NCBI RefSeq assembly: GCF_002263215.1
Contig: NZ_NLFK01000002.1
Span: forward strand, 124,001-188,000
Length of the DNA stretch: 64,000 nucleotides
Reading direction: 5' to 3'
Origin: Actinobacillus seminis
GTDB lineage: Bacteria > Pseudomonadota > Gammaproteobacteria > Enterobacterales > Pasteurellaceae
In this document: in pieces, positions 1 through 36,747 of the stretch
How the letters are laid out: every line of letters starts with the position of its first letter
Numbering within the stretch: position 1 is the stretch's first letter
Position numbers and translations under genes: made by a program
The notes under the pieces: generated by a model
Told to the model about the DNA's origin: nothing
The model's database searches: none
Seen by the model: the letters and a program-made list of their open reading frames with translations, nothing else

Positions 1-858
1 CGCCAATATCGAAGATAGATTCATCAGCTTGGACATCAGATACCGATTTTTCAGTGGCTGGCGCGCTGTCAGAGAATTCTGTACCCACACGCACATCTAC
101 CGGCACAGGGATATTGGTAGCTTTTGCCAAGCGTTGTGCTTCAGGGATTAAATCTGCTTCGTATAAAGATTTACCTACGTTGTGCCCTTCCGCAGCGATA
201 AAGGTATTGGCAATACCACCGCCCACAATTAATTGGTCGGCGATTTTTGAAAGACTATCCAGTACCGTTAATTTGGTGGACACTTTTGAACCGCCGACAA
301 TTGCCAACATTGGACGTTGCGGTTCTTTTAATGCTTTACCCAGCGCCTCTAATTCCGCCGCTAATAAAGGACCGGCACAAGCTACCGGTGCAAATTGTGC
401 CACGCCATAAGTTGAACCTTCCGCGCGGTGTGCCGTACCGAATGCGTCCATCACGAAGATATCACAAAGTGCGGCGTATTTTTTCGCTAATTCTTCAGAA
501 TTTTTCTTCTCGCCTTTGTTTACGCGAACGTTTTCCAATACCACAACTTCACCATCAGCCACTTCAACGCCCTCTAAGTAATCTTGTACTAAACGCGCTT
601 TGAAGCCGGCATTGTTCAAGTAATCAACAACAGGTTGTAAAGAATCTTCCGGTTTGAATTCCCCTTCCGTCGGACGACCTAAATGCGAAGTTACCATCAC
701 TTTTGCACCTTTTTCCAATGCTAATTTCAATGTTGGGATGGTTGCACGAATACGTGCGTCAGATGTTACTTTGCCATCTTTTACCGGCACATTTAAATCC
801 GCACGAATGAAAAGACGTTTACCTGCTAAATCTAAGTCGGTCATTTTAATTACTGACA
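1..858 (-). CDS. pgk: phosphoglycerate kinase, 5' part (runs off the window)
   Basis: Phosphoglycerate kinase makes ATP from 1,3-bisphosphoglycerate in cytoplasmic glycolysis. Reading the minus strand from the ATG at 856-858 gives [20 protein letters not shown], followed by DLNVP, the TSHLGRP motif near residue 60, VLENVR, and the hinge region [13 protein letters not shown]. The frame stays open to base 1, giving 286 of the usual 386 or so residues; the C-terminal nucleotide-binding lobe lies outside the window. The start is preceded by a purine-rich AGAGGTAAATT, a good ribosome binding site. Downstream partners, often fba, are not visible. Identification is very safe. Confidence 0.97.
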
Positions 859-995
859 TAATTTACCTCTTTGCTTGATTAAGATTAAAATTTTACGAAA
901 ACTGTTAGGCATTATACCCAGTTACGACTAGCTTGTAACTGGTCTAGATCAAATTATCACCATTATTTTTTTATTAAATAATTATTTCTTAAATA

Positions 996-1038: not shown

Positions 1039-1142
1039 AAACGCTTGAAAGTCGGGGGGGGTGATAACATTCCGATTATTTTTCTTTGCCGACCGCACTT
1101 AGGTTCGGCACAACGCAATTACTATTCAATAAGAGAATTTCT

Positions 1143-4100
1143 ATGAACAAAATCTTCAAAACCAAATACGATGTAACAACGGGTCAAACCAAAGCCGTTT
1201 CTGAATTAGCCAGCAACCGCCAAGTGGCGAGCAGTTCGGGGGAAAAGCCGAAGTGCGATGTGTTTTTCGGCGGAAATTTAGGGGCGTTTAAAGTCTTACC
1301 ATTGGCGTTGTTGATGTTGGGGCTGTTGTCGAGTGTGGCGTATGGTGACAACGATAATGTGTATCATTGGGATCAAGGGGAAGGGTCTTACATTGCTCCA
1401 TATAAAGATGGTGTGCACGAAGGAAAAAACAAAGAATCTGTATTAATTACTAAAAAAGAAAATACCGCAGGGCTGGAGGTTAATAAAGCGCGCAAAAATA
1501 ATGCGAGCTTTAAACATACTGTTGCCGTAGGTTCACGTACTGTTGTTGGTGGACATGGTGCGACATCAATAGGATATAAAGCTATTGCGGGTAGCAATGT
1601 CAATAAAAGTAATGTTGATGATTATAATCAAGAAATGACAGCCATTGGGTATAGGGTTTTTGCTAATGGCGATAGTTCTACGGCGATAGGAAACGAAGCC
1701 ACTGCTTGGGGGGATAACTCTATTGCTATAGGTTCAGATAATGCCAAAGGAGATGGGAAAGATAACAGAGCAGAGCGTGCGTTAAGCTACGATGTTTGGA
1801 GGTTAGTACATGATAAACGAAAAGATTTCTTGTATACGGCTGATTATGCAACGACAAAAGAAGAAATAAATGATTATCAGAATTATCTCTCTTTTAAAAA
1901 TGGCGATCAAGAAAGTAAAAATAGATTAAAAAAATCCCATACTTGGGCAAGAGGTCATAATGCTATTTCTATTGGATCGAGAAGTATTGCCTACGGTAAT
2001 GATTCTACGGCTATGGGAACGTTAGCATTAGCAATTGGTAACTATTCTACCTCTTTGGGGGCATTTTCTATGGCATTTGGTGAGAAATCGATCGCTATTG
2101 GAAATGAAACTTATGTATATAAATCAGGAAGTGTTGGAGTTGGTAACGGTGTTCAAGCTATTTCCGATGGTTCTATAGTGTATGGGTTAGAATCTTATGC
2201 TGGTGGACTTGGCTCTATAGCTATTGGTACACGAGCATTATCTAATGTAGAAACTTCTGATAATTTTAAAGAAAAAACGAAAGAAAGTGTGTTCGGTGTT
2301 ACGGCTATATATGACGATGTAAGTACGGTTGGTAAATTGGATGAATTGGACACTGCTAAACCTAATGATTATTTTAAGCCTAAAGTCGTAGGGCAAGAAG
2401 GCTCTGGTGAAGAGAAAGCTAATTCTAATACAAAAACGGGAGGGCTGGCTATTGGTTATTATGCACTTGCCTATGGTGAAAATGCACTCGCTTTAGGTCG
2501 TCAAGTGTATGCTAAAGGTGAACGTTCAATTGCCATCGGTCCGTATGCCTATGCTAAAGCAGAAAAAACAGCCGCACTAGGTTATGGATCCAAGGCGATA
2601 GGGGAACAATCAATGGCGTTGGGATCGCTATCTCGTGCTGAAGGGAACAATAGTATCGCCATTGGTATCAATAGTGCGGTGAAAAATGAATCTAATAGTG
2701 ATAAAAGAAATGGTCTAAACACGCTAGCTATCGGTAATGAAACCGAAGCGACCATGGATAACTCAGTTGCCTTGGGTTATAAATCACATACAAAATATTT
2801 TTATCAAGATACTAACAAAAATACAGCAACCTTAACCGGAAAAGACGCTATTAGTTTAGAACCCTATGTTCCCGAGGGGTCAAGCTATAACTTAAGAACC
2901 GATAAATCAGCCGGTATCGTGTCCGTCGGTTGGACAAAAGACGGAAACAAGCTGGGATTGAGAAGAATCATCGGGGTCGCACCCGGAGCGTTGGATAGTG
3001 ACGTCGCGACTATCGGGCAATTAAAAGCATTAGCCTATGTGAAAAAAGACGGCACGCCTTATAAAGATTTAGGTCATATTGATGCAAATAACGTTTTCGT
3101 CGGTCCAAAAGGGGAGGATGAAAAAACAAGAACGGAAATGAAAGCCAGTAAAGAATACTCGCTCGGTGATATGGGTAAAAAAATCAAATTTGCCCATATC
3201 TTAGACGGCGAGATTAAATCCGGATCCGATCAAGCGGTAACGGGGAATCAATTATATAGCGTCAAAGATGTATTGGGGGTTGAGTTAAACCAAAATACGA
3301 CACTAAAAAGACCTAGTTTTGGAGCGGTGAATTATGTCAATGGTGGAAAGAGGGTAACAGAAACCTTTAAAGATGCTTTAACGGATACGATTAATGCGAT
3401 TAATTCTGGGTATAAGTTTAGCGATGGTGACTCAACAAATATTGCCAAGAACACACCGTTTTATCTTGGCTCGACGTTAGAGATTAAAGCTGGTGATATT
3501 CAAACAACCCATAAAAGTACAAATTTAAAAACGAAATTGACATTAGAGGACACCAATTCAAAAGCGGTATTTACTATCGGCTTAAGCGACACTCCGACCT
3601 TTAAAAAGGTGATGTTGGATAATGAGAATGCACCTACAGATAATAAAGAATTAGTTAATAAAAAATACGTAGATGATAAATTTCAAAATGTTGCTACCAG
3701 TTTTAATGTGGCTGGGGATAGCGGAGACTTTAAAGTAACGAATCGACTGGATATTAAGGGCGACACCAATATCTCTACAAAGGCTTCGACCAATGAGGTA
3801 AAAATATCGCTGCAAGAGGCTTTAACAGGCATTGCTTCTGTTATGGGCAAAAACGGCGGTACGAAAATTGAATTTACCAATGATGGTTTGACGCTAAACA
3901 GCAAAAAAATCACCGGCTTACAAGATGGAAACAACGACACAGACGCTGTTACCTTTAAGCAATTAAATGATTCAAAATTACATTTCTTATCCGTACATGA
4001 TGAAGGTAAAAACAAGGGAAATTACAACAATGACGGAGCAAAAGCGGCAAATTCCGTAGCTATCGGTGTGGATGTAGAAGCACAAACGGGTGCGGATTCT

Positions 4101-7100
4101 GCGGTCTTGGTCGGACACAGCTTGAGTACGAATGTAAAAAATTCGGTTGTTGTGGGATCGAATATTAATATTGAGCAAGAAGAGAAAGACAGAAAATTTA
4201 GAAAAGATGCTGTGGTTGCTATCGGTAGCGGGCTGAAATTAAAAAATGCGAAAAGCTCGATTGTCATCGGAGCGGTAGATGAGCGGTCGAAAGCGGATAA
4301 TTCTCCGACGAATGATGAGTGGAGAACAGTCATCGAAGACGCTACGTGGTCGGTGGTTCTCGGGAATAAAACGAAAATCAAAAATGGTGACGACGTGTTG
4401 GCATTGGGGAATAATATTATTGCAAAAGGGACGGTTCAGGGTAAAATCAGCGGTTTAGTTATCTTAGGAAATAGAGCCAAGGCAACAGACGCCAAAAACA
4501 GCGTAGTGATCGGAACTTCGGCAGAATCCAAAGCTGAAAGTGCGGTCGTATTGGGGCATGAAGCAAAAGTAGAAAGTGCGGCAGGTGATTCAATCGCTTT
4601 AGGTAAAGGGTCGAAAGCGACTAAGAAAGAAATCGCACCAAGTGAAGCTAAATCAAGTAAAGACGTTAAATTTGCATGGACAGCCGGTATTGGAGGCGAT
4701 AAATCCGTCGTCAGCATAGGCGATAGCGATAAAGAAAGACAGATTAAACATGTCGCCGCAGGTGTAGTAACGTCAGCTTCCACCGACGCCATTAACGGAA
4801 GTCAACTCTACGCCGTCGCCGATGAGTTTTCTAAATTAGCGGTTGACGTATTGGGCGCGGAGAAAGCGGATAATGATAAAACAGGATTTAAAAAATCCAC
4901 CTTTACTGCTGTGAACTATCAGGGAAGTAAAAATAAATCACCACAAACATTTAGAGATGCTATTAATGAGAGTATCGCCGCGATCAATAAAGGCTTGAAA
5001 TTCGCGGGCAATGAGGGAACAGCATTCACCAGCCAACTCGGTGTGACCGTCAACATCAAGGGAGACGGTACGGATCTCTCCTCAAAAGCCGAAAATAATG
5101 CGATTATATTTGCTTTACATAAAGCCGATAAAGTGGAGGCAAATAATGATAAAGTCGTTACCTCCAAAGCGGTGCATACGGAGATTAGCAAGGTTACGCA
5201 GGAATTAAACAATGCGGAAATAAGCTATAAGGCGAATGGCACGAGCGAACAAAAGGTCAAATTGACGGACGGGTTTAATTTTACAAACAGCGATAATATC
5301 ACCGCAGAAGTTAAAGATAAAGGCGTCGTGAAATTTAAATTAAATGACACGTTACAAAATATCACCTCGATTAGCGGTAAAGCCGACAATGGCACTGCAC
5401 CGCAAATTGATTTTGCAAATCAAGAGGGTCTTAAAATTTCATCTCAAGGGGTTGAAGCCACGTTCAAAACTGGCGGCTTACACTTAAATGATAAACAACT
5501 TAAGGGGGTGAACAGCGGTTTAGGCTTGCCAGCCAATGGCGGGAATAGTACGGAAATTACCAACAAAGTTCTCGCGGGAACTCCGGATAATGATAGCAAC
5601 GCCGTCAATGTAAAAGACTTATCTACAGTCGCCAAAGCCATTGTGGATAAGGGCTTAACCTTTAAAGGCGATTCAGGTGTTGACATCGCTCGTAAATTGG
5701 GCGAGACCCTCACGATTAAAGGTGAGAAAGATTATACCGAAACAGTAACAAATGGTGCAGAAATGACCGTCAAACTGACACAAGGCGTGAAAGACAAATT
5801 GGGTGTCATCACGGTGGAGGGTGATAAACTCGCTATAGGTAAAGACTCAACCTTGGAAGAAAAAGGCACCGCATTTAACGGAGCGGATATCAATGTCGGC
5901 ATAAAAAACAGCTTGAAATTTAACTGGACGGGCGGGGTCAGTGCTGATGATACTGAGCAGAATAAAAAATCCGTGATCAGTGTGGGCAGTGATGACAAGG
6001 AACGTATTATTACCCATGTTGCTGCAGGCAAAGTCAGTAATGATTCCACCGACGCCATCAATGGCTCACAGCTTGCCGAAGTTATCCGTGTGTTCGGTAA
6101 TTTAGGCACGGATATTTTAGGTGGGGAAGTGGATCCTGTCACGAAAACGTTTAAAGCCTCGACGTTTGATAAATTGAAAGATGAAAGCGGAACGGATACA
6201 GCAGTTAAAGCACAAACAACCTTTAAAGGGGCGATTGACTCGTTAATCGCAACTGTCAATAAAGGATTGATATTTGCAGGTAATACAGGTGAGTTCACCC
6301 GACAAATTGGTGCTAAAATAACCATTGAAGGCGAAAATGGGGATATTACAACAACAGCAAATATCGGTAACATTACCCTGAAATTAAATAAAGCTTATAA
6401 AGTTTTAGAAAGTGATGAAAAAGTGGTCACCTCAAAAGCGGTAGCGGAAGAGTTGAAGAAATATACCTCAACAGCGACCCTAGACAAAAACTTCTTGAAA
6501 GTAGATGGCTCGAATATCGGTGGTAACCAATCTAAATTTGGTGAAAATGTCGGTATTAGCAAAATAAACCTTGAAAATGGTAAAAAAAGTACGACGGAAT
6601 TAGTACAGGCTAAAGCGGTGATTGATTACCTAAAAGGTATGGGAACAGGCTCAGTGAAAATTTCCGATAATCCGGAGACCAAAGCAGAGGGCGAAGGCTC
6701 AATTGCGGTGGGGGATAAAGCCATCGCTCAAAATGCCGGAGCGGTTGCTATTGGTCAAAATGCCGGAGCGAAAAATGCCGGAGCAATCTCTATTGGTAAA
6801 GATTCGGATGTTACGTCTATAGACGGTGTTGCTTTAGGAAGAAAAAATGTTGTAGGAGGTCAATCATCGATCGCCATCGGTGAGACTAATACTGTATCCG
6901 GTGTTCAATCCTATGTCATCGGGTCGGATAACGATATCAAAGGGAGAGAAGTCGTTGCCATCGGTTCTAATATAACGGCGGATGAAAAAATTCACGATGC
7001 GGTTATTTTAGGCAAAGGTTCAACAGGTGAGGCGAAAACTGTATCCGTGGGGAGTACAGATACCAAAAGACGGATTATTTTTGTCGATACGCCAACAGGC

Positions 7101-7409
7101 GAGTATGACGCCGCCAATAAAAAATATGTAGACGAAAGAGGGCTTAAATTCAAAGGAAATGAAGAAAATCAAACAGAACTGGTCAACTTAGACAAGTTAT
7201 TGACGATCGACAGTTCGGAAGCCAATAAATATGATAAAGGCAAGAAGGAAAAGGATATTAAAACGAAAGTCGAAAAAGAGGGAGATGGAGCAAAATTAAC
7301 TTTAACCCTAAATAAAGCGGATGAGGTTTCCGAACACGATGAAAGAGCGGTGAGCTCCAAAGCGGTGCATAGTGCTTTGCAGGCAGCTAAAAAAAAAAAA
7401 AAATATTAG
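1143..7409 (+). CDS. trimeric autotransporter adhesin (YadA-like), head and stalk part, broken by a poly(A) tract
   Basis: Surface adhesin of the type Vc secretion family. I place the start at the ATG at 1143, preceded by AATAAGAGAATTTCT; it opens an extended signal peptide (MNKIFKTKYDVTTGQTKAV), with the hydrophobic core VLPLALLMLGLLSSVAYG ending near residue 71. The passenger carries many left-handed head repeats of the form SIAIG-x-A-x-A in at least three blocks (about residues 120-600, 960-1180, 1840-1980). These are separated by neck motifs (DAINGSQL at about 1210 and 1635; NKKYVDD) and stalk repeats. Two long stretches, near 4670-5000 and 5920-6260, are diverged copies of one another. 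The frame ends in five lysines, Tyr and a stop just after a 15-A run. It has no membrane anchor of its own: that lies in the next frame. With the tract at 13 or 16 A the joined protein would be about 2,592 residues. Confidence 0.9.
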   Translation: MNKIFKTKYDVTTGQTKAVSELASNRQVASSSGEKPKCDVFFGGNLGAFKVLPLALLMLGLLSSVAYGDNDNVYHWDQGEGSYIAPYKDGVHEGKNKESVLITKKENTAGLEVNKARKNNASFKHTVAVGSRTVVGGHGATSIGYKAIAGSNVNKSNVDDYNQEMTAIGYRVFANGDSSTAIGNEATAWGDNSIAIGSDNAKGDGKDNRAERALSYDVWRLVHDKRKDFLYTADYATTKEEINDYQNYLSFKNGDQESKNRLKKSHTWARGHNAISIGSRSIAYGNDSTAMGTLALAIGNYSTSLGAFSMAFGEKSIAIGNETYVYKSGSVGVGNGVQAISDGSIVYGLESYAGGLGSIAIGTRALSNVETSDNFKEKTKESVFGVTAIYDDVSTVGKLDELDTAKPNDYFKPKVVGQEGSGEEKANSNTKTGGLAIGYYALAYGENALALGRQVYAKGERSIAIGPYAYAKAEKTAALGYGSKAIGEQSMALGSLSRAEGNNSIAIGINSAVKNESNSDKRNGLNTLAIGNETEATMDNSVALGYKSHTKYFYQDTNKNTATLTGKDAISLEPYVPEGSSYNLRTDKSAGIVSVGWTKDGNKLGLRRIIGVAPGALDSDVATIGQLKALAYVKKDGTPYKDLGHIDANNVFVGPKGEDEKTRTEMKASKEYSLGDMGKKIKFAHILDGEIKSGSDQAVTGNQLYSVKDVLGVELNQNTTLKRPSFGAVNYVNGGKRVTETFKDALTDTINAINSGYKFSDGDSTNIAKNTPFYLGSTLEIKAGDIQTTHKSTNLKTKLTLEDTNSKAVFTIGLSDTPTFKKVMLDNENAPTDNKELVNKKYVDDKFQNVATSFNVAGDSGDFKVTNRLDIKGDTNISTKASTNEVKISLQEALTGIASVMGKNGGTKIEFTNDGLTLNSKKITGLQDGNNDTDAVTFKQLNDSKLHFLSVHDEGKNKGNYNNDGAKAANSVAIGVDVEAQTGADSAVLVGHSLSTNVKNSVVVGSNINIEQEEKDRKFRKDAVVAIGSGLKLKNAKSSIVIGAVDERSKADNSPTNDEWRTVIEDATWSVVLGNKTKIKNGDDVLALGNNIIAKGTVQGKISGLVILGNRAKATDAKNSVVIGTSAESKAESAVVLGHEAKVESAAGDSIALGKGSKATKKEIAPSEAKSSKDVKFAWTAGIGGDKSVVSIGDSDKERQIKHVAAGVVTSASTDAINGSQLYAVADEFSKLAVDVLGAEKADNDKTGFKKSTFTAVNYQGSKNKSPQTFRDAINESIAAINKGLKFAGNEGTAFTSQLGVTVNIKGDGTDLSSKAENNAIIFALHKADKVEANNDKVVTSKAVHTEISKVTQELNNAEISYKANGTSEQKVKLTDGFNFTNSDNITAEVKDKGVVKFKLNDTLQNITSISGKADNGTAPQIDFANQEGLKISSQGVEATFKTGGLHLNDKQLKGVNSGLGLPANGGNSTEITNKVLAGTPDNDSNAVNVKDLSTVAKAIVDKGLTFKGDSGVDIARKLGETLTIKGEKDYTETVTNGAEMTVKLTQGVKDKLGVITVEGDKLAIGKDSTLEEKGTAFNGADINVGIKNSLKFNWTGGVSADDTEQNKKSVISVGSDDKERIITHVAAGKVSNDSTDAINGSQLAEVIRVFGNLGTDILGGEVDPVTKTFKASTFDKLKDESGTDTAVKAQTTFKGAIDSLIATVNKGLIFAGNTGEFTRQIGAKITIEGENGDITTTANIGNITLKLNKAYKVLESDEKVVTSKAVAEELKKYTSTATLDKNFLKVDGSNIGGNQSKFGENVGISKINLENGKKSTTELVQAKAVIDYLKGMGTGSVKISDNPETKAEGEGSIAVGDKAIAQNAGAVAIGQNAGAKNAGAISIGKDSDVTSIDGVALGRKNVVGGQSSIAIGETNTVSGVQSYVIGSDNDIKGREVVAIGSNITADEKIHDAVILGKGSTGEAKTVSVGSTDTKRRIIFVDTPTGEYDAANKKYVDERGLKFKGNEENQTELVNLDKLLTIDSSEANKYDKGKKEKDIKTKVEKEGDGAKLTLTLNKADEVSEHDERAVSSKAVHSALQAAKKKKKY
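7389..7403 (+). repeat. 15-A homopolymer inside the adhesin gene (frame switch)
   Basis: Fifteen consecutive A bases encode five lysines and are followed by TAT TAG. Removing two A or adding one A gives AAA ATA TTA GAT GGC, that is KILDGKTPMANKG, which runs straight into the downstream frame holding the anchor. Such a run is a plausible site for replication or transcriptional slippage. Because 454 adaptor remnants occur elsewhere in the window, its length may also be miscalled, or it may be a contig join. Confidence 0.85.
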
Positions 7410-7423
7410 ATGGCAAAACACCG

Positions 7424-8923
7424 ATGGCTAATAAAGGCTTAACTGCTAAAGATGGATTAAACGGCAAAAACGCCAATGATAAAGCCAACGCTTTACGCAA
7501 TGGTGAGGCTGGAACTGTGGTATTTACCGATAAAGACGGTAATCGTTTGGTCAAAGCCAACGACGGTAAATACTATAAAGCGACTGACGTGGACGATAAA
7601 GGTAACGTGAAATCTGCTGCTAATGGTCAAGTTGCACCAAAAGCAGTGGACAATCCGCAACTTTCGTTGGTCAATACCGGTGGTGAAACCGATAAACCTG
7701 TGGTGCTGGGCAACGTGGCAAGCGGTTTGGGTATTGATGCCGACAAAGCGAAAGAGCATGCCGAAAACGTGAAAAATGCAGGCGAAGCAGTGAAAACCGA
7801 AGCACAGGCGGTGGCGAAAAAAGTAGACGATATGTTGACGCTACAAACAGCAAAAGAGGCGAAACAGGACGCCATTGACGCTCTTGAAACCGCATTGTCT
7901 TTCATGCCGGAAACTACACCGGAGGAAAAAGCGGCGAAAGAGAAAGCCAAAGCTAAGATCGAGGGCGAAAAATCAACATTAGCCGACATTAACTCGAAAT
8001 TGGATAAAGCGAAAAAAGAGGTTGAATCGGCACAAGGCATATTAAAAACGAAGCAAGAAGCCTATCAAACCGCCTTAAAAGCAAAAGATGGCGCTGTCAA
8101 TAAATTATTGTCGGGCGATGCAAGCGTCGATGTTCACCGCGGGGCAAACTTGCAAGACTTACAAGCCTTAGGACAAGCGGGCTTAAATTTTGAGGGCAAT
8201 GACGGCGTGCCTGTTCATAAAAATTTAGGCGAGAAATTGACCATCAAAGGCGAGGGCGAGTTTAACAGTGCGACCACGGCGGCGGGCAACATTAAAGTGG
8301 AAGCCTCCGAGACGGGACTGGAAGTCAAACTGTCCGACAAGTTGAAAAACATGACCTCTTTTGAGACTCGTGAAGTGGACGGCAAACAAGCACGATTGGA
8401 TAGTAGCGGATTAAGCGTCCAAAACAAAACCGGCAAAGAACAAGCCAAATTAAGCGAAAACCGTTTAGCATTCTATGAAAACGGGGCGCTGGGACTGAAT
8501 TTGGACGGCAAATCCCGCGCCTTAAGAATGGGTGAACAAGAGATTATTAAAGTCTCCGAACGGGGTGAAGCTTTGGTTTCCGATCTGAGTCCACACAGTT
8601 CGGGACAAACGATCGCCAATAAAAACTATGTGGACAGTCAATTGGGCGCTGCCATTAATCGCTTGGATAATGTCATCAGTACCAATAATCGCAACTTGCA
8701 GGCAGGCATCGCTGGAGCAAATGCCGCTGCCGCTTTGCCTACAGTAGCGATCCCGGGTAAATCGACTGTTGCGTTGTCCGCAGGGACTTACAAAGGCAGA
8801 AATGCGGTAGCGATAGGCTATTCTCGCCTAAGCGATAATGGTAAGATAACACTGAAATTACACGGTAACAGTAACTCTGTCGGTGATTTCGGCGGTGGCG
8901 TGGGTGTCGGCTGGACGTGGTAG
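7424..8923 (+). CDS. trimeric autotransporter, C-terminal stalk and YadA membrane anchor (frame-shifted 3' part)
   Basis: This frame is the natural continuation of the upstream adhesin frame. It opens with TAKDGLNGKNANDKANAL and a VVFTDKDGNRLVKANDGKYY repeat. A long Lys/Glu/Ala-rich coiled coil follows (about residues 105-230 of this part), with a short non-helical break FMPETTPEE. The end is a typical YadA anchor: NKNYVDSQL, a trimeric coil around INRLDNVISTNNR, then four beta strands (VALSAGTYKGRNAVAIGYS ... GVGVGWTW) ending in Trp for BAM recognition. The first ATG at 7424 has no convincing ribosome binding site, so independent translation is unlikely. If the tract is really out of frame, the product made from 1143 could not be anchored. 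Confidence 0.88.
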   Translation: MANKGLTAKDGLNGKNANDKANALRNGEAGTVVFTDKDGNRLVKANDGKYYKATDVDDKGNVKSAANGQVAPKAVDNPQLSLVNTGGETDKPVVLGNVASGLGIDADKAKEHAENVKNAGEAVKTEAQAVAKKVDDMLTLQTAKEAKQDAIDALETALSFMPETTPEEKAAKEKAKAKIEGEKSTLADINSKLDKAKKEVESAQGILKTKQEAYQTALKAKDGAVNKLLSGDASVDVHRGANLQDLQALGQAGLNFEGNDGVPVHKNLGEKLTIKGEGEFNSATTAAGNIKVEASETGLEVKLSDKLKNMTSFETREVDGKQARLDSSGLSVQNKTGKEQAKLSENRLAFYENGALGLNLDGKSRALRMGEQEIIKVSERGEALVSDLSPHSSGQTIANKNYVDSQLGAAINRLDNVISTNNRNLQAGIAGANAAAALPTVAIPGKSTVALSAGTYKGRNAVAIGYSRLSDNGKITLKLHGNSNSVGDFGGGVGVGWTW

Positions 8924-9162: not shown

Positions 9163-9407
9163 GACATCCTCCCCTGCCTAAAGATGGGGGATTCCTACCA
9201 GCTCCCACAGTAAACTGTGGGCTACTCTCGGTGGGTTCTTGGCTTGAGACCGCTTATGCGGTTCACCTCACAAGCGCTACGGCGATGTCCTCGCCTGAAA
9301 TGCCGTCATTGAGAAAGCCTAAGCGTATTGTTAGCATGCATGATTATACTCCGTTTTGTGCCTTATATCTACGCTCTAAAGGACTTAGGTTGCACGATCA
9401 GATAAAT
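9163..9407 (-). mobile_element. internally deleted IS200/IS605-type (tnpB-bearing) element
   Basis: On the minus strand the order is: a left end (CTGATCGTGC, GTCCTTTAG) near 9407; an ATG-led opening at about 9340; then directly a tnpB-like 3' end reading SGEDIAVALVR and, after stops, SSQEPTESS; then the hairpin CCCACAGT/ACTGTGGG near 9210-9227; and finally the CCCC-rich right-end hairpin CCCCTGCCTAAAGATGGGG near 9175. This tail organisation is typical of tnpB elements, where the 3' end and right end encode the guide (omega) RNA scaffold. About 1 kb of tnpB is missing. The left end provides the last codons of lutC. Family call and orientation rest on recognition, not on a search. Confidence 0.6.
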
Positions 9408-10098
9408 CATCAATAACCACATAAACTTTAGTTGTCGGTCCATGGACACCAACCACTTTTACCAATTCAATATCTGCAGTGGAACTTGGACCGGAAATGA
9501 TATTGATACAAGAAGGCATTCTTTCGCCTTGCTGTGCTTTAGCATGCAATATTTCTGCTAATTGCGCAACGCGAGGAAGAACGGTACTTTTGCGTAATAC
9601 CACAATGGATTTTTCCGGCAATAAACTGACCGAACGTCCGCGATCTTTATCGGAATAAAGTACGATTCCGCCCGATTCTGCCAATCCGTATTCCGCATAA
9701 ACAATGCCGATATTCGCTTTTTCAGCCTGTGCTAGATTTTCCTCGCCTTTTGCCGGATCCCAAATATGAGTAGTGTATTTTTCACAAATCGCCTGCGTTA
9801 ATCCTAAGACCTCTAAACGGCTATCGTTATTTAACACTACCTCACCGCCACCGTATTTTTCACATATTGCAATCACCGTTGCTTGAACATTTTCTTGTTT
9901 AGTTTCAATCACATCTACCATCATGACTTTAGCAAAATCAAGGAATGCTTGGCAACGCTCGACTTGTGATAATTCGGTTAAGCGCGTTTTCGGATAATCG
10001 TTTTCCCATTTCGGCATTGGTTCCGGAACCAGTTGGCGTGGACGTCCCATTTTCTCCGCAAGTTTATTTAAAAAATGCTCTCTATTTTGCAAATCCAT
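9385..10098 (-). CDS. lutC: L-lactate utilisation protein C (LUD domain)
   Basis: LutC is the smallest subunit of the LutABC iron-sulfur complex that oxidises L-lactate to pyruvate. The 237-residue protein matches the LUD/YkgG family: GIVYAEYGLAESGGIVLYS in the middle, LLPEKSIVVLRKS, and the C-terminal INIISGPSSTADIE and VHGPTTKVYVVI. I use the ATG at 10098, which overlaps the lutB stop (TAATG) and follows GAGGGG, rather than an upstream ATG inside lutB. The last residues, LSDRAT, and the stop are encoded by the left end of the adjacent IS remnant, so the native C-terminus may have been slightly changed. The conserved domain looks complete. Confidence 0.9.
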   Translation of the reverse strand: MDLQNREHFLNKLAEKMGRPRQLVPEPMPKWENDYPKTRLTELSQVERCQAFLDFAKVMMVDVIETKQENVQATVIAICEKYGGGEVVLNNDSRLEVLGLTQAICEKYTTHIWDPAKGEENLAQAEKANIGIVYAEYGLAESGGIVLYSDKDRGRSVSLLPEKSIVVLRKSTVLPRVAQLAEILHAKAQQGERMPSCINIISGPSSTADIELVKVVGVHGPTTKVYVVIDDLSDRAT

Positions 10099-11510
10099 TA
10101 TTTTGCCCCTCTTTTGTCGAACCAATCTCTGAAACTTTGTCCCTCTGCACTTGGCAAATCACGCGCTTTTGTCCATTCCGCTAATGCACCGATTTGCACA
10201 GGTGCTTTACCATTTTTGATCAATTTTGCTGCCATTTTCGCGCCAACATTAACGCCAATTTTCCATAAGGTTGGGTGCGAATTCGCAAAATTAAAGCCAA
10301 AGATAGATAACCGTTCTACACTCGGCGTCATTCCGTTTTGAGCAATATGCTCACGATGTTTCAAAATGAGTTGTGCTAACGGAATTTTTACCGGGCAAAC
10401 TGAGTTACAAGAGGTACATAACGAACAAGCATATGGCAATTCTTTAAATTCTTTATATCCGCCAAGTAATGGAGAAATAACGGAACCGATTGGCCCCGGA
10501 TAGATAGAACCATACCCATGACCGCCAATTTGACGATATGCCGGACAGGTATTTAAGCAAGCCCCGCAACGGATACAACGTAAAACTTCTTTAAATTCGC
10601 TTTCTAGAATTTTAGAGCGTCCGTTATCGACAATCACTAAGTGGAATTCTTCCGGACCGTCAGTCTCCCCCTCAAGGCGAGGTCCGGTTAACCACGTATT
10701 ATAGCCGGTTAATTTTGCCCCAACCGCACTGCGCGCCAACATTGTAATCAACACATCCACTTCTTCAAAAGTCGGCGCAATACGTTCCATCCCCATAACC
10801 GCAATATGTGTTTTCGGCACAGTTGTGGCTAAACGTAAGTTCCCTTCGTTTGTCACCAAACAAACGCTACCTGTTTCCGGTACCGCAAAGTTACAACCGC
10901 TAACCCCAATATCCGCCTCTAAGAAATCTTCACGAATTTTTTGACGAATAAATAAAGTCATCGCTTCCGGCGTTTCGGGACCGTCATAACCTAATTTTTC
11001 TTGTAATACTTTTTGGATCTGATAACGATCTTTATGAATTGCCGGCACCACAATATGAGAGGGTTTATCTCCGGCAATTTGTAAAATATATTCACCCAAA
11101 TCCGTCTCAACGACCTTAATGCCTTCCGCTTCCAATACGTGGTTCATGCCGATTTCTTCGGTCACCATGGATTTGGATTTAACAACTTTCTTCGCCTTTT
11201 TGGCTAACGCTACTTGGCGAATATAGTTAGTGGCATCTTCTGCGGTTTCGGCAAAAAACACTTTACCGCCATTTTGCATCACTTTCTCGCTCAATTGATA
11301 CAAATACGCATCTAAATTAGCTAAAACGTGATTACGGATTTGTTTGGATAAATTACGCCATTCTTCCCAATGCCCTAATTCATTTGCCATATTTTGACGA
11401 TTAGTGCCAATACGCTCCTGTGCCATCACAATGGCTTTACGCATAATTTCATTGTGAATTTGTTCGTCAACTCGTTGTTTAAATGCAAGATTACTGGTTT
11501 TTAATGTCAT
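10098..11510 (-). CDS. lutB: L-lactate utilisation iron-sulfur protein B
   Basis: LutB carries the two [4Fe-4S] clusters that pass electrons during L-lactate oxidation at the membrane. The 470-residue protein has an N-terminal LUD domain (VVPAIHKDRYQIQ, ETGSVCLVTNEGNLR near residue 215) and two ferredoxin-like cluster motifs, CIRCGACLNTCPAYR at about residue 307 and CSLCTSCNSVCPVKIP at about 357. It starts one base after the lutA stop and overlaps lutC by one base, so the three are translationally coupled. Length and domain order are normal for LutB/LldF/YkgF. Confidence 0.95.
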   Translation of the reverse strand: MTLKTSNLAFKQRVDEQIHNEIMRKAIVMAQERIGTNRQNMANELGHWEEWRNLSKQIRNHVLANLDAYLYQLSEKVMQNGGKVFFAETAEDATNYIRQVALAKKAKKVVKSKSMVTEEIGMNHVLEAEGIKVVETDLGEYILQIAGDKPSHIVVPAIHKDRYQIQKVLQEKLGYDGPETPEAMTLFIRQKIREDFLEADIGVSGCNFAVPETGSVCLVTNEGNLRLATTVPKTHIAVMGMERIAPTFEEVDVLITMLARSAVGAKLTGYNTWLTGPRLEGETDGPEEFHLVIVDNGRSKILESEFKEVLRCIRCGACLNTCPAYRQIGGHGYGSIYPGPIGSVISPLLGGYKEFKELPYACSLCTSCNSVCPVKIPLAQLILKHREHIAQNGMTPSVERLSIFGFNFANSHPTLWKIGVNVGAKMAAKLIKNGKAPVQIGALAEWTKARDLPSAEGQSFRDWFDKRGAK

Positions 11511-12322: not shown

Positions 12323-13915
12323 TTATACCCCATAAAATAATGGAATGACTGTCAAGGCGATAACTGCGGCAATAATACCGTAAACCGCCATTGGTACAAC
12401 AGTTTGTTTAATGATCGCCCCTTCTTTATTGTTAATATTCAATACAGAGCTTACTGCAACAATATTATTAATACATACCATGTTCCCCATTGCACCGCCG
12501 ACAGATTGTAACGCCAACACAACAGAAGCAGAAAGTCCGGTAATTTGAGCGGTTGATAATTGTACGCTACCGAATGTTAAGTTAGAGACGGTATTTGAAC
12601 CGGAGAAGAATGCCCCAACCGCGCCTAAATAAGAGGCGAACCATGTCCAATATTCACCGGTTGCATCAGCAAAGCTTTGTCCAATGATTTTTACCATAGA
12701 ATTATCACCGCCCACCAACATCAAGTTCACCATGATCAATGCACCGACTAAAGCAAGGAATGGATTACGCGTTTGTTTAAAGCTACTTGAGAAAATCTCT
12801 TTAACATTGCCGGCAGAAAGTGCAAAGACCGGAATGGCAATTAACACGGAAACAACAAACGGAATTAATGCCGGTACATACAGTAATTTGTAATTGGCAT
12901 TGATTGTCGTATCAAAAATGTTTTTCAAACTGAATACTAAACCTTGGCTAATATCAAATACACCTAAAGAGCCTAATTTCACGCTGAATAAAGAGGTCAT
13001 ATCGTTCATCATCTCTTTAAACGGTAATTGTTGCAAACGGGTTACGATCAAAATCATAATCAATAAACCGGTTGGGAATAAGGCTTTAGCAACCTCACCT
13101 ATTGTCGTGGTATTGCTTAATTTATTTTCTACTTTCGCCAATCCGATACCTTTATTTGCCAAAAATACAGAAATAAACAGACCGATTGCGCCGCCTACCA
13201 AAGACGGAAATTCATAATTGACTTGTGCCAATAAGAAATAAGGAATGATACAAGAGAAAATGGATAAATAAATATAAACGATATTTTGACGAATTTCTTT
13301 ACCGGTGGCAATAAAACGCAATGCCATCACAGGAATCACGATCGCAGCAAACGAGTGAATTAATGCAGTCATCGAACCGATTTCCAAAATTTGTGATTCC
13401 GGCAAGTTTAGCGGACCAAAACCGAACCAAGTCGGCGTCCCTACCGCACCGAAAGAAACCGGTACCGAGTTCATCACCAATGCCAACATCGCGACCTTCA
13501 ACGGAGGGAAACCTAAGCCAACTAAAATTGGTGCCGCAATCGCTGCCGGCGTACCAAAGCCACTCGCCCCTTCAATCATAAACGCAAATGCCCAACCGAT
13601 AATCATCGCCTGCGCAATTGGGTTCGGGTTAATGCTCCCCAACCATTTACGCAACGTATCCGTTGCGCCGGAAACTTCGGAAAAACGGTTAAATAAAATC
13701 GCGCCGAAAATAACGGTTATCGGTGTTTGCACTGCGACTAACGCGGACACAATATTGGCACTAACAAGTTTGATATCTGTACCAAAGAAAATTAATTGAA
13801 TAATTAACACCACCACCGCAATCCAAGGCAACGCTACATAAGACGGAAGGGCGTTACGTTTTACCATCAAATAAATTAATAAAACGATAGGAAAGATACT
13901 AAGAAAAAGAGCCAT
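12323..13915 (-). CDS. lctP: L-lactate permease
   Basis: Inner-membrane lactate:proton symporter of the LctP family; it brings in the substrate for the LutABC complex encoded just downstream. The 530-residue protein is almost wholly hydrophobic, with about 12-14 membrane segments. Family landmarks are the SGATDTLRKWLGSI stretch near residue 80, MIEGASGFGTPAAIAAPIL near 113, FGFGPLNL, FSGSNTVSNLTFGSVQ near 424 and QSVGGAMGNMVCINNIVAVS near 464. It starts at an ATG preceded by TAGGAGTG at good spacing. It is transcribed ahead of lutABC and separated from lutA by a strong inverted repeat. Confidence 0.95.
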   Translation of the reverse strand: MALFLSIFPIVLLIYLMVKRNALPSYVALPWIAVVVLIIQLIFFGTDIKLVSANIVSALVAVQTPITVIFGAILFNRFSEVSGATDTLRKWLGSINPNPIAQAMIIGWAFAFMIEGASGFGTPAAIAAPILVGLGFPPLKVAMLALVMNSVPVSFGAVGTPTWFGFGPLNLPESQILEIGSMTALIHSFAAIVIPVMALRFIATGKEIRQNIVYIYLSIFSCIIPYFLLAQVNYEFPSLVGGAIGLFISVFLANKGIGLAKVENKLSNTTTIGEVAKALFPTGLLIMILIVTRLQQLPFKEMMNDMTSLFSVKLGSLGVFDISQGLVFSLKNIFDTTINANYKLLYVPALIPFVVSVLIAIPVFALSAGNVKEIFSSSFKQTRNPFLALVGALIMVNLMLVGGDNSMVKIIGQSFADATGEYWTWFASYLGAVGAFFSGSNTVSNLTFGSVQLSTAQITGLSASVVLALQSVGGAMGNMVCINNIVAVSSVLNINNKEGAIIKQTVVPMAVYGIIAAVIALTVIPLFYGV

Positions 13916-13991: not shown

Positions 13992-14038
13992 AGTCGTGGG
14001 AGGCAAGGCACACAGGGGATAGGAAAAAAAAAAAAAAA
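13992..14038. other. sequencing adaptor remnant plus poly(A): assembly artefact
   Basis: Bases 13992-14023 read, on the minus strand, CCTATCCCCTGTGTGCCTTG followed by CCTCCCACGACT. From memory this is the Roche/454 B-type library adaptor. Fifteen A follow (14024-14038), then GATAAAGATCACA. The same 32 bases plus 17 A recur at 36699-36747. The sequence is not biological and marks an artificial contig end upstream of lctP. The join may hide missing sequence. The right flank begins inside what looks like a CRP half-site. Nothing else is seen in the 13916-14208 gap. Confidence 0.9.
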
Positions 14039-36698: not shown

Positions 36699-36747
36699 AG
36701 TCGTGGGAGGCAAGGCACACAGGGGATAGGAAAAAAAAAAAAAAAAA
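36699..36747. other. second sequencing adaptor remnant plus poly(A): assembly artefact
   Basis: Bases 36699-36730 are identical to the 32 bases at 13992-14023 and are followed by 17 A. The minus strand begins CCTATCCCCTGTGTGCCTTG, the 454 B-adaptor core as I remember it. The join falls inside a SulP gene, so the sequences to its left and right need not be neighbours in the real chromosome. Apart from the tRNA and infA terminator, 36312-36698 holds nothing I recognise. Confidence 0.92.

Follow-up and report, generated by a model that had tools for sequence, protein, structure and literature searches.

The window, as we call the whole 64,000-nucleotide stretch of Actinobacillus seminis DNA analysed here, carries near its left end two parts of trimeric autotransporter adhesin genes that meet at a tract of fifteen A's (A15; Table 1). 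The left-half open reading frame runs for 2,082 residues from its ATG to the tract and terminates in KKKKKY-stop just past it, and the right half is an open stretch of 506 residues that begins at the A15 in a frame different from that of the left half. The preliminary description of this DNA had correctly seen that the tract is present as letters in the assembly, that the adhesin at 15 A's ends in lysines and a stop, and that the coiled coil and YadA anchor lie in another frame past the tract. Its figure of 2,590 residues holds approximately for the sum of both halves across the tract.

Pfam searches assigned YadA head and stalk repeats exclusively to the left half (PF05658, E 8.4e-43; PF05662, E 4.1e-28) and the YadA anchor exclusively to the right half (PF03895, E 6.5e-16). 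Both the passenger head and stalk repeats and the YadA-like C-terminal anchor of a type Vc (trimeric autotransporter adhesin) system are thus present. The frame from signal peptide to anchor is interrupted in the assembly, whereas it is unbroken in two Histophilus somni genes (L206 with 2,627 residues and L205 with 3,698, counted from their start codons). The right part may belong to the gene of the left part or to a paralogue. By eye, the adhesin is flanked by a pgk side (window 1-988) and a lactate-utilisation side (9402-10893). An Rfam scan of the whole window returned two tRNAs and nothing else.

Table 1 Features of the window discussed in the text
Feature	Position	Strand	Remarks
G8 tract, candidate switch	1054..1061	+	Precedes the start codon ATG 1143 by 89 bases
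Left (5') part, trimeric autotransporter adhesin gene	1143..7388	+	Start of the extended-signal-peptide type; head and stalk repeats
A15, almost certainly gap filler at a contig join	7389..7403	+	1 of 61 same-strand A tracts, minimum length 15
Right (3') part, trimeric autotransporter adhesin gene, YadA membrane anchor	7404..8923	+	PF03895
32-base 454 Rapid Library adaptor (13992-14023) and A15 (14024-14038)	13992..14038	+	Second contig join
32-base 454 Rapid Library adaptor (36699-36730) and A17 (36731-36747)	36699..36747	+	Third contig join

The window's genome (G000; 22 contigs, 2.37 Mb) was compared with a relative of the same genus (G001; one contig) and with a sibling species (G002; two contigs). 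Overlapping matches to eleven A's numbered 374 on the forward and 0 on the reverse strand of G000, 0 and 0 in G001, and 0 and 14 in G002, where all 14 stem from three tracts. A non-A followed by ten A's was found at 62 places in G000, all on the forward strand. With the flanks of all 62 examined, 61 proved to carry at least 11 A's, and one (L116) has ten. The 61 tracts measure 15 (26 tracts), 16 (17), 17 (11), 18 (3), 19 (1), 20 (2) and 22 (1) bases, with none of length 11-14 in G000. A model of a constant 15 plus chance adjoining A's, at a local A frequency of 0.342, predicts 26.4, 18.1, 9.3, 4.2 and 3.0 tracts with 0, 1, 2, 3 and at least 4 extra A's, and 26, 17, 11, 3 and 4 were observed (chi-square 1.07, p 0.90). 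Given that genuine tracts are expected on both strands, the finding of 61 out of 61 on the forward strand speaks for a filler. The census does not bear out the earlier view of the A15 as part of the gene, the tract being one of 61 A tracts on a single strand with a minimum of exactly 15. At nine of the 61 fillers a 14-mer is common to both flanks, as expected of contig ends that overlap or are repetitive.

A 32-base sequence associated with these tracts is the reverse complement of the R-B oligo given in the available text of PMC3411243, where 454 Rapid Libraries were used, and its first 20 bases also occur in the Roche Titanium B adaptor in the accessible portion of PMC3179495. A literature search with the reverse complement of the adaptor returned no match. 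With one mismatch allowed, the adaptor core gave 15 matches in G000 and none in any of the 24 further genomes searched. Adaptor or linker 10-mers lie at most 60 bases from 23 of the 61 fillers, and control windows 340-400 bases away held none. The orientation was always into the filler (forward on the left in 16 cases, reverse on the right in 10, the opposite in 0). This is how contig ends that retain adaptor sequence would be arranged around a filler. Four tracts are adjoined by a loxP-type linker; in its available part, PMC5199103 screens a linker containing the loxP-type sequence as a mate-pair adaptor, and a loxP adaptor figures in library making in the corresponding part of PMC3532085. 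The other 38 fillers, the A15 between the adhesin halves included, have no remnant within 60 bases. Constant-length filler and contig-end remnants are likewise seen in draft assemblies with placeholder gaps and residual 454 adaptors. Unlike the N placeholders of such assemblies, the filler here consists of A's, mimicking a real homopolymer.

Two further A tracts in the window, both missed by the preliminary description, directly follow the 32-base adaptor (Table 1). The first lies upstream of an L-lactate permease gene (12323-13915, minus strand; PF02652). The second, whose 17 A's we read as filler plus flanking A's, interrupts a sulfate permease gene (PF00916) at its 3' end, and the open frame of this gene has 381 residues in the window versus 589-595 in three relatives. 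Between the window flanks of this filler there are 651 bases in G001 and 1,552 in G002 that the window is without. The G002 segment holds the rest of the permease and, by eye, a glycosyltransferase gene, which contains a G9 run (L231, position 5528) and is read in two frames (201 and 126 residues). Elsewhere in G000, an A15 filler (L141, position 1502) interrupts a second YadA-anchor gene, on contig C21, with a long open frame to either side of the break.

The closest uninterrupted paralogue of the adhesin in G000 is L209 (C12, 212-220 kb), which gives matches of 84% to the left part's end and of 86% to the right part's start. The flanks of the A15 do not directly adjoin in relatives: in L209, 1,173 bases separate the sequences homologous to left residue 2079 and to right residue 3. 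For the final 169 residues of the left half, the best alignment in H. somni L206 lies 903 bases before the right-part match; when the left half is aligned in full, through its repeats, the longest alignment instead ends at residue 2062, 189 bases before that match. The spacing of 903 bases is less firm, since it depends on which of the two overlapping alignments is taken. In L211, L205, L206, L209 and L212 a segment with FADG[KR]DG precedes the right part in frame. It is absent before the right part in the window, and FADG is absent from the left half. Contig C19 terminates at the end of the left flank, its last 93 bases being identical but for the final one, and contig C8 terminates where the right flank begins, one base into it. 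The assembly has no second complete copy of the middle of L209, the best other match covering 457 of 1,261 bases at 90%. An A15 filler also lies 64 bases 5' of the start of L209 (position 1249), which makes its upstream region unreliable.

Together, these observations make it almost certain that the A15 is an assembly gap filler marking the join of two contigs within a scaffold from a 454-type assembly. Fifteen A's would have been written at the scaffold join, and the adhesin gene would break here at a middle part common to paralogues in G000, which the assembler could not place. The filler would then stand for an unfilled gap, and a repeat that the assembly did not resolve is the probable cause of the break. 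To judge from the spacing in L209, a piece of about 1.2 kb is probably absent, and the true adhesin gene would be continuous.

The preliminary description had offered three explanations, namely slipped-strand phase variation, transcriptional slippage, and a homopolymer or contig-join artefact. Phase variation or slippage at the A15 is unsupported, because the filler is of constant length, genome-wide and on one strand. In the phase-variation reading, a genomic A tract would decide by its length whether the adhesin reaches its anchor. The frame does shift across the A15, and adhesins of this kind can be phase-variable, as is Hag of Moraxella in the available text of PMC1931440. This reading is nevertheless highly improbable: already in the assembly all 61 tracts lie on one strand with a minimum of 15, the flanks are separated by about 1.2 kb in paralogue L209, and 11 of 12 loci that contain adhesin genes, or ends of such genes, have no A run longer than 8, the twelfth, L209, holding another filler. 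Long A/T runs are possible in the genus, G002 having runs of 16-17 T's, and this is a point against a filler, as is the lack of any adaptor remnant beside the A15 itself. Transcriptional slippage would produce a fixed share of anchored protein, and A runs this long would be slippery for RNA polymerase. It needs the same genomic tract, however, and both the census and the L209 spacing speak against that, leaving it a negligible chance.

The contig-join half of the artefact explanation is upheld by the constant 15 on one strand, but a mere miscall is not, about 1.2 kb being apparently absent. That pyrosequencing over-called a naturally short run of A's, the gene being complete in other respects, is in keeping with the library chemistry, which is apparently 454, and 454 sequencing is known for homopolymer errors. 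Over-calls would be expected to produce T as often as A and no minimum of 15, and at both L209 and the sulfate permease filler sequence seems absent rather than miscounted; we regard this reading as very improbable. A scaffold misjoin, in which the filler joins the halves of two different adhesin genes, is a variant of the filler explanation that we consider unlikely, though it deserves weight. The genes that neighbour the two ends are widely separated in G001 and G002, and among the YadA anchors listed for G001 (5) and G002 (20) none is near either place. As contigs C19 and C8 break off at these two points too, the opposite pairing of the halves is conceivable. On the other hand, L209 resembles both halves about equally, the loxP linker suggests that mate pairs may have supplied the scaffold links, and adhesin genes may simply have rearranged, an ordinary alternative. 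The distant neighbours in G001 and G002 could reflect either rearrangement or a scaffold misjoin. In G001, the neighbour of the lactate-utilisation side (by eye dnaQ/rnhA) aligns to about 226-228 kb of contig C12 of G000.

With the A15 read as a filler, a switch of the surface adhesin could still be located elsewhere. As the three A/T tracts of at least 11 in G002 lie, by coordinates, near the starts of anchor genes, the 5' regions of such genes were fetched. YadA-anchor matches at E 0.001 numbered 17 in G000 and 20 in G002, one of each being below the family cut-off, and the sample comprised 20 anchor genes of G002, 10 of G000 and 4 of G001. Anchor-gene starts were reckoned from the open frame, and some 5' regions may miss the true start. 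The G002 genes include the match below the cut-off (L264) as well as L250 and L251, which are identical over the compared stretch and were both counted. G/C runs of at least 8 occurred in 14 of the 20 regions of G002, in 5 of the 10 of G000 and in none of the 4 of G001, and one further run is the G8 of the window. In the background, there was 1 such run in 21,503 bases of G002 and 0 in 181,714 bases of G000 filler loci, a sum in which overlaps are counted twice and about 9 kb also belong to the window; the window itself has none after base 2,300. The enrichment at 5' ends gave Fisher p values of 3e-4 (G002) and 2e-7 (G000), with bases treated as independent.

Among genes with an extended-signal-peptide motif at the start followed by a tract, the frame stayed open to the fetched end in 3 of 10 in G002, with a stop in the other 7, and in 0 of 3 in G000, where 454 run lengths are unreliable. 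L245, L254 and L257 of G002 have a tract but a start that the motif did not recognise, and were left out of this count. The G002 adhesin gene L255 carries TCAA x 23 (854-945) about 110 bases past its start, the classic layout of a tetranucleotide switch. Upstream of two anchor-protein genes of G002 are a T17 (L252, position 508) and a T16 (L253, position 666). A by-product of the analysis is thus what looks like a set of trimeric adhesins whose starts carry simple repeats.

The G8 of the window belongs to a block, CGCTTGAAAGTC-G(n)-TGATAA, common to the adhesin gene and two paralogues, one of them with an extra T. The tract is G8 at -89 in the window and on contig C20, and G11 at -93 on contig C19. 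Two G002 genes have TTGAAA, a G12 (at -88 and -87) and TAAACT or TAAGCT. The place of the G tract is conserved and its length varies between copies (G8, G11 and G8, with G12 in G002), 454 run lengths being uncertain. L279, a paralogue with a similar start, has no G/C tract, and no upstream tract was found in H. somni L205, L206 and L208, the search in L205 covering 48 bases. In the porA and opc promoters of Neisseria, a poly-G/C tract lies between the -35 and -10 elements. Similarly, the G tract in the shared block stands between TTGAAA and a TAACAT-like hexamer. The putative spacer differs from those promoters in that a consensus promoter scan found no sigma-70 site across the G8, which counts against a promoter reading, as does the lack of the tract in the G001 regions, the H. 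somni genes and L279. The G8 is a candidate promoter-spacer switch of a type already known. It is a better switch candidate than the A15, and the surface adhesin could be switched after all, but through this other tract.

Comparable systems are known from other adhesins. In Moraxella catarrhalis, a homopolymeric G tract near the start of the open reading frame switches Hag (Hag/MID), according to the available text of PMC1931440, and a title cited there describes UspA1 as phase-varying with regulation at transcription. Compared with Hag/MID and UspA1, the candidate tract here lies upstream of the gene, and the A15 is not of that type. The VtaA repertoire of Haemophilus (Glaesserella) parasuis is likewise an example of Pasteurellaceae with many YadA-anchor matches, a likeness in the size of the repertoire; thirteen vtaA products were first identified in strain Nagasaki, as stated in the accessible part of PMC6211672. 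In the available literature passages on phase-variable trimeric adhesins in Pasteurellaceae, the homopolymeric tracts found concern restriction-modification genes, and the accessible parts of PMC3765393 and PMC3796261 contain nothing on tracts in trimeric adhesins.

Reading the A15 as a filler averts a false claim of a new type of adhesin switch. Genes across any of the 61 fillers may seem truncated or frame-shifted though they are possibly whole, and a gap filter that relies on N's is blind to gaps written in A's. The tracts worth attention are the G/C runs at the 5' ends of adhesin genes. On balance, we consider it rather probable that the adhesin is switched at its other end by a promoter poly-G tract. 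It would then belong to a set of trimeric adhesins that simple repeats control in at least two species of the genus, with promoter tracts of G8-G12 acting in some and G/C tracts or TCAA x 23 just inside the coding part in others.
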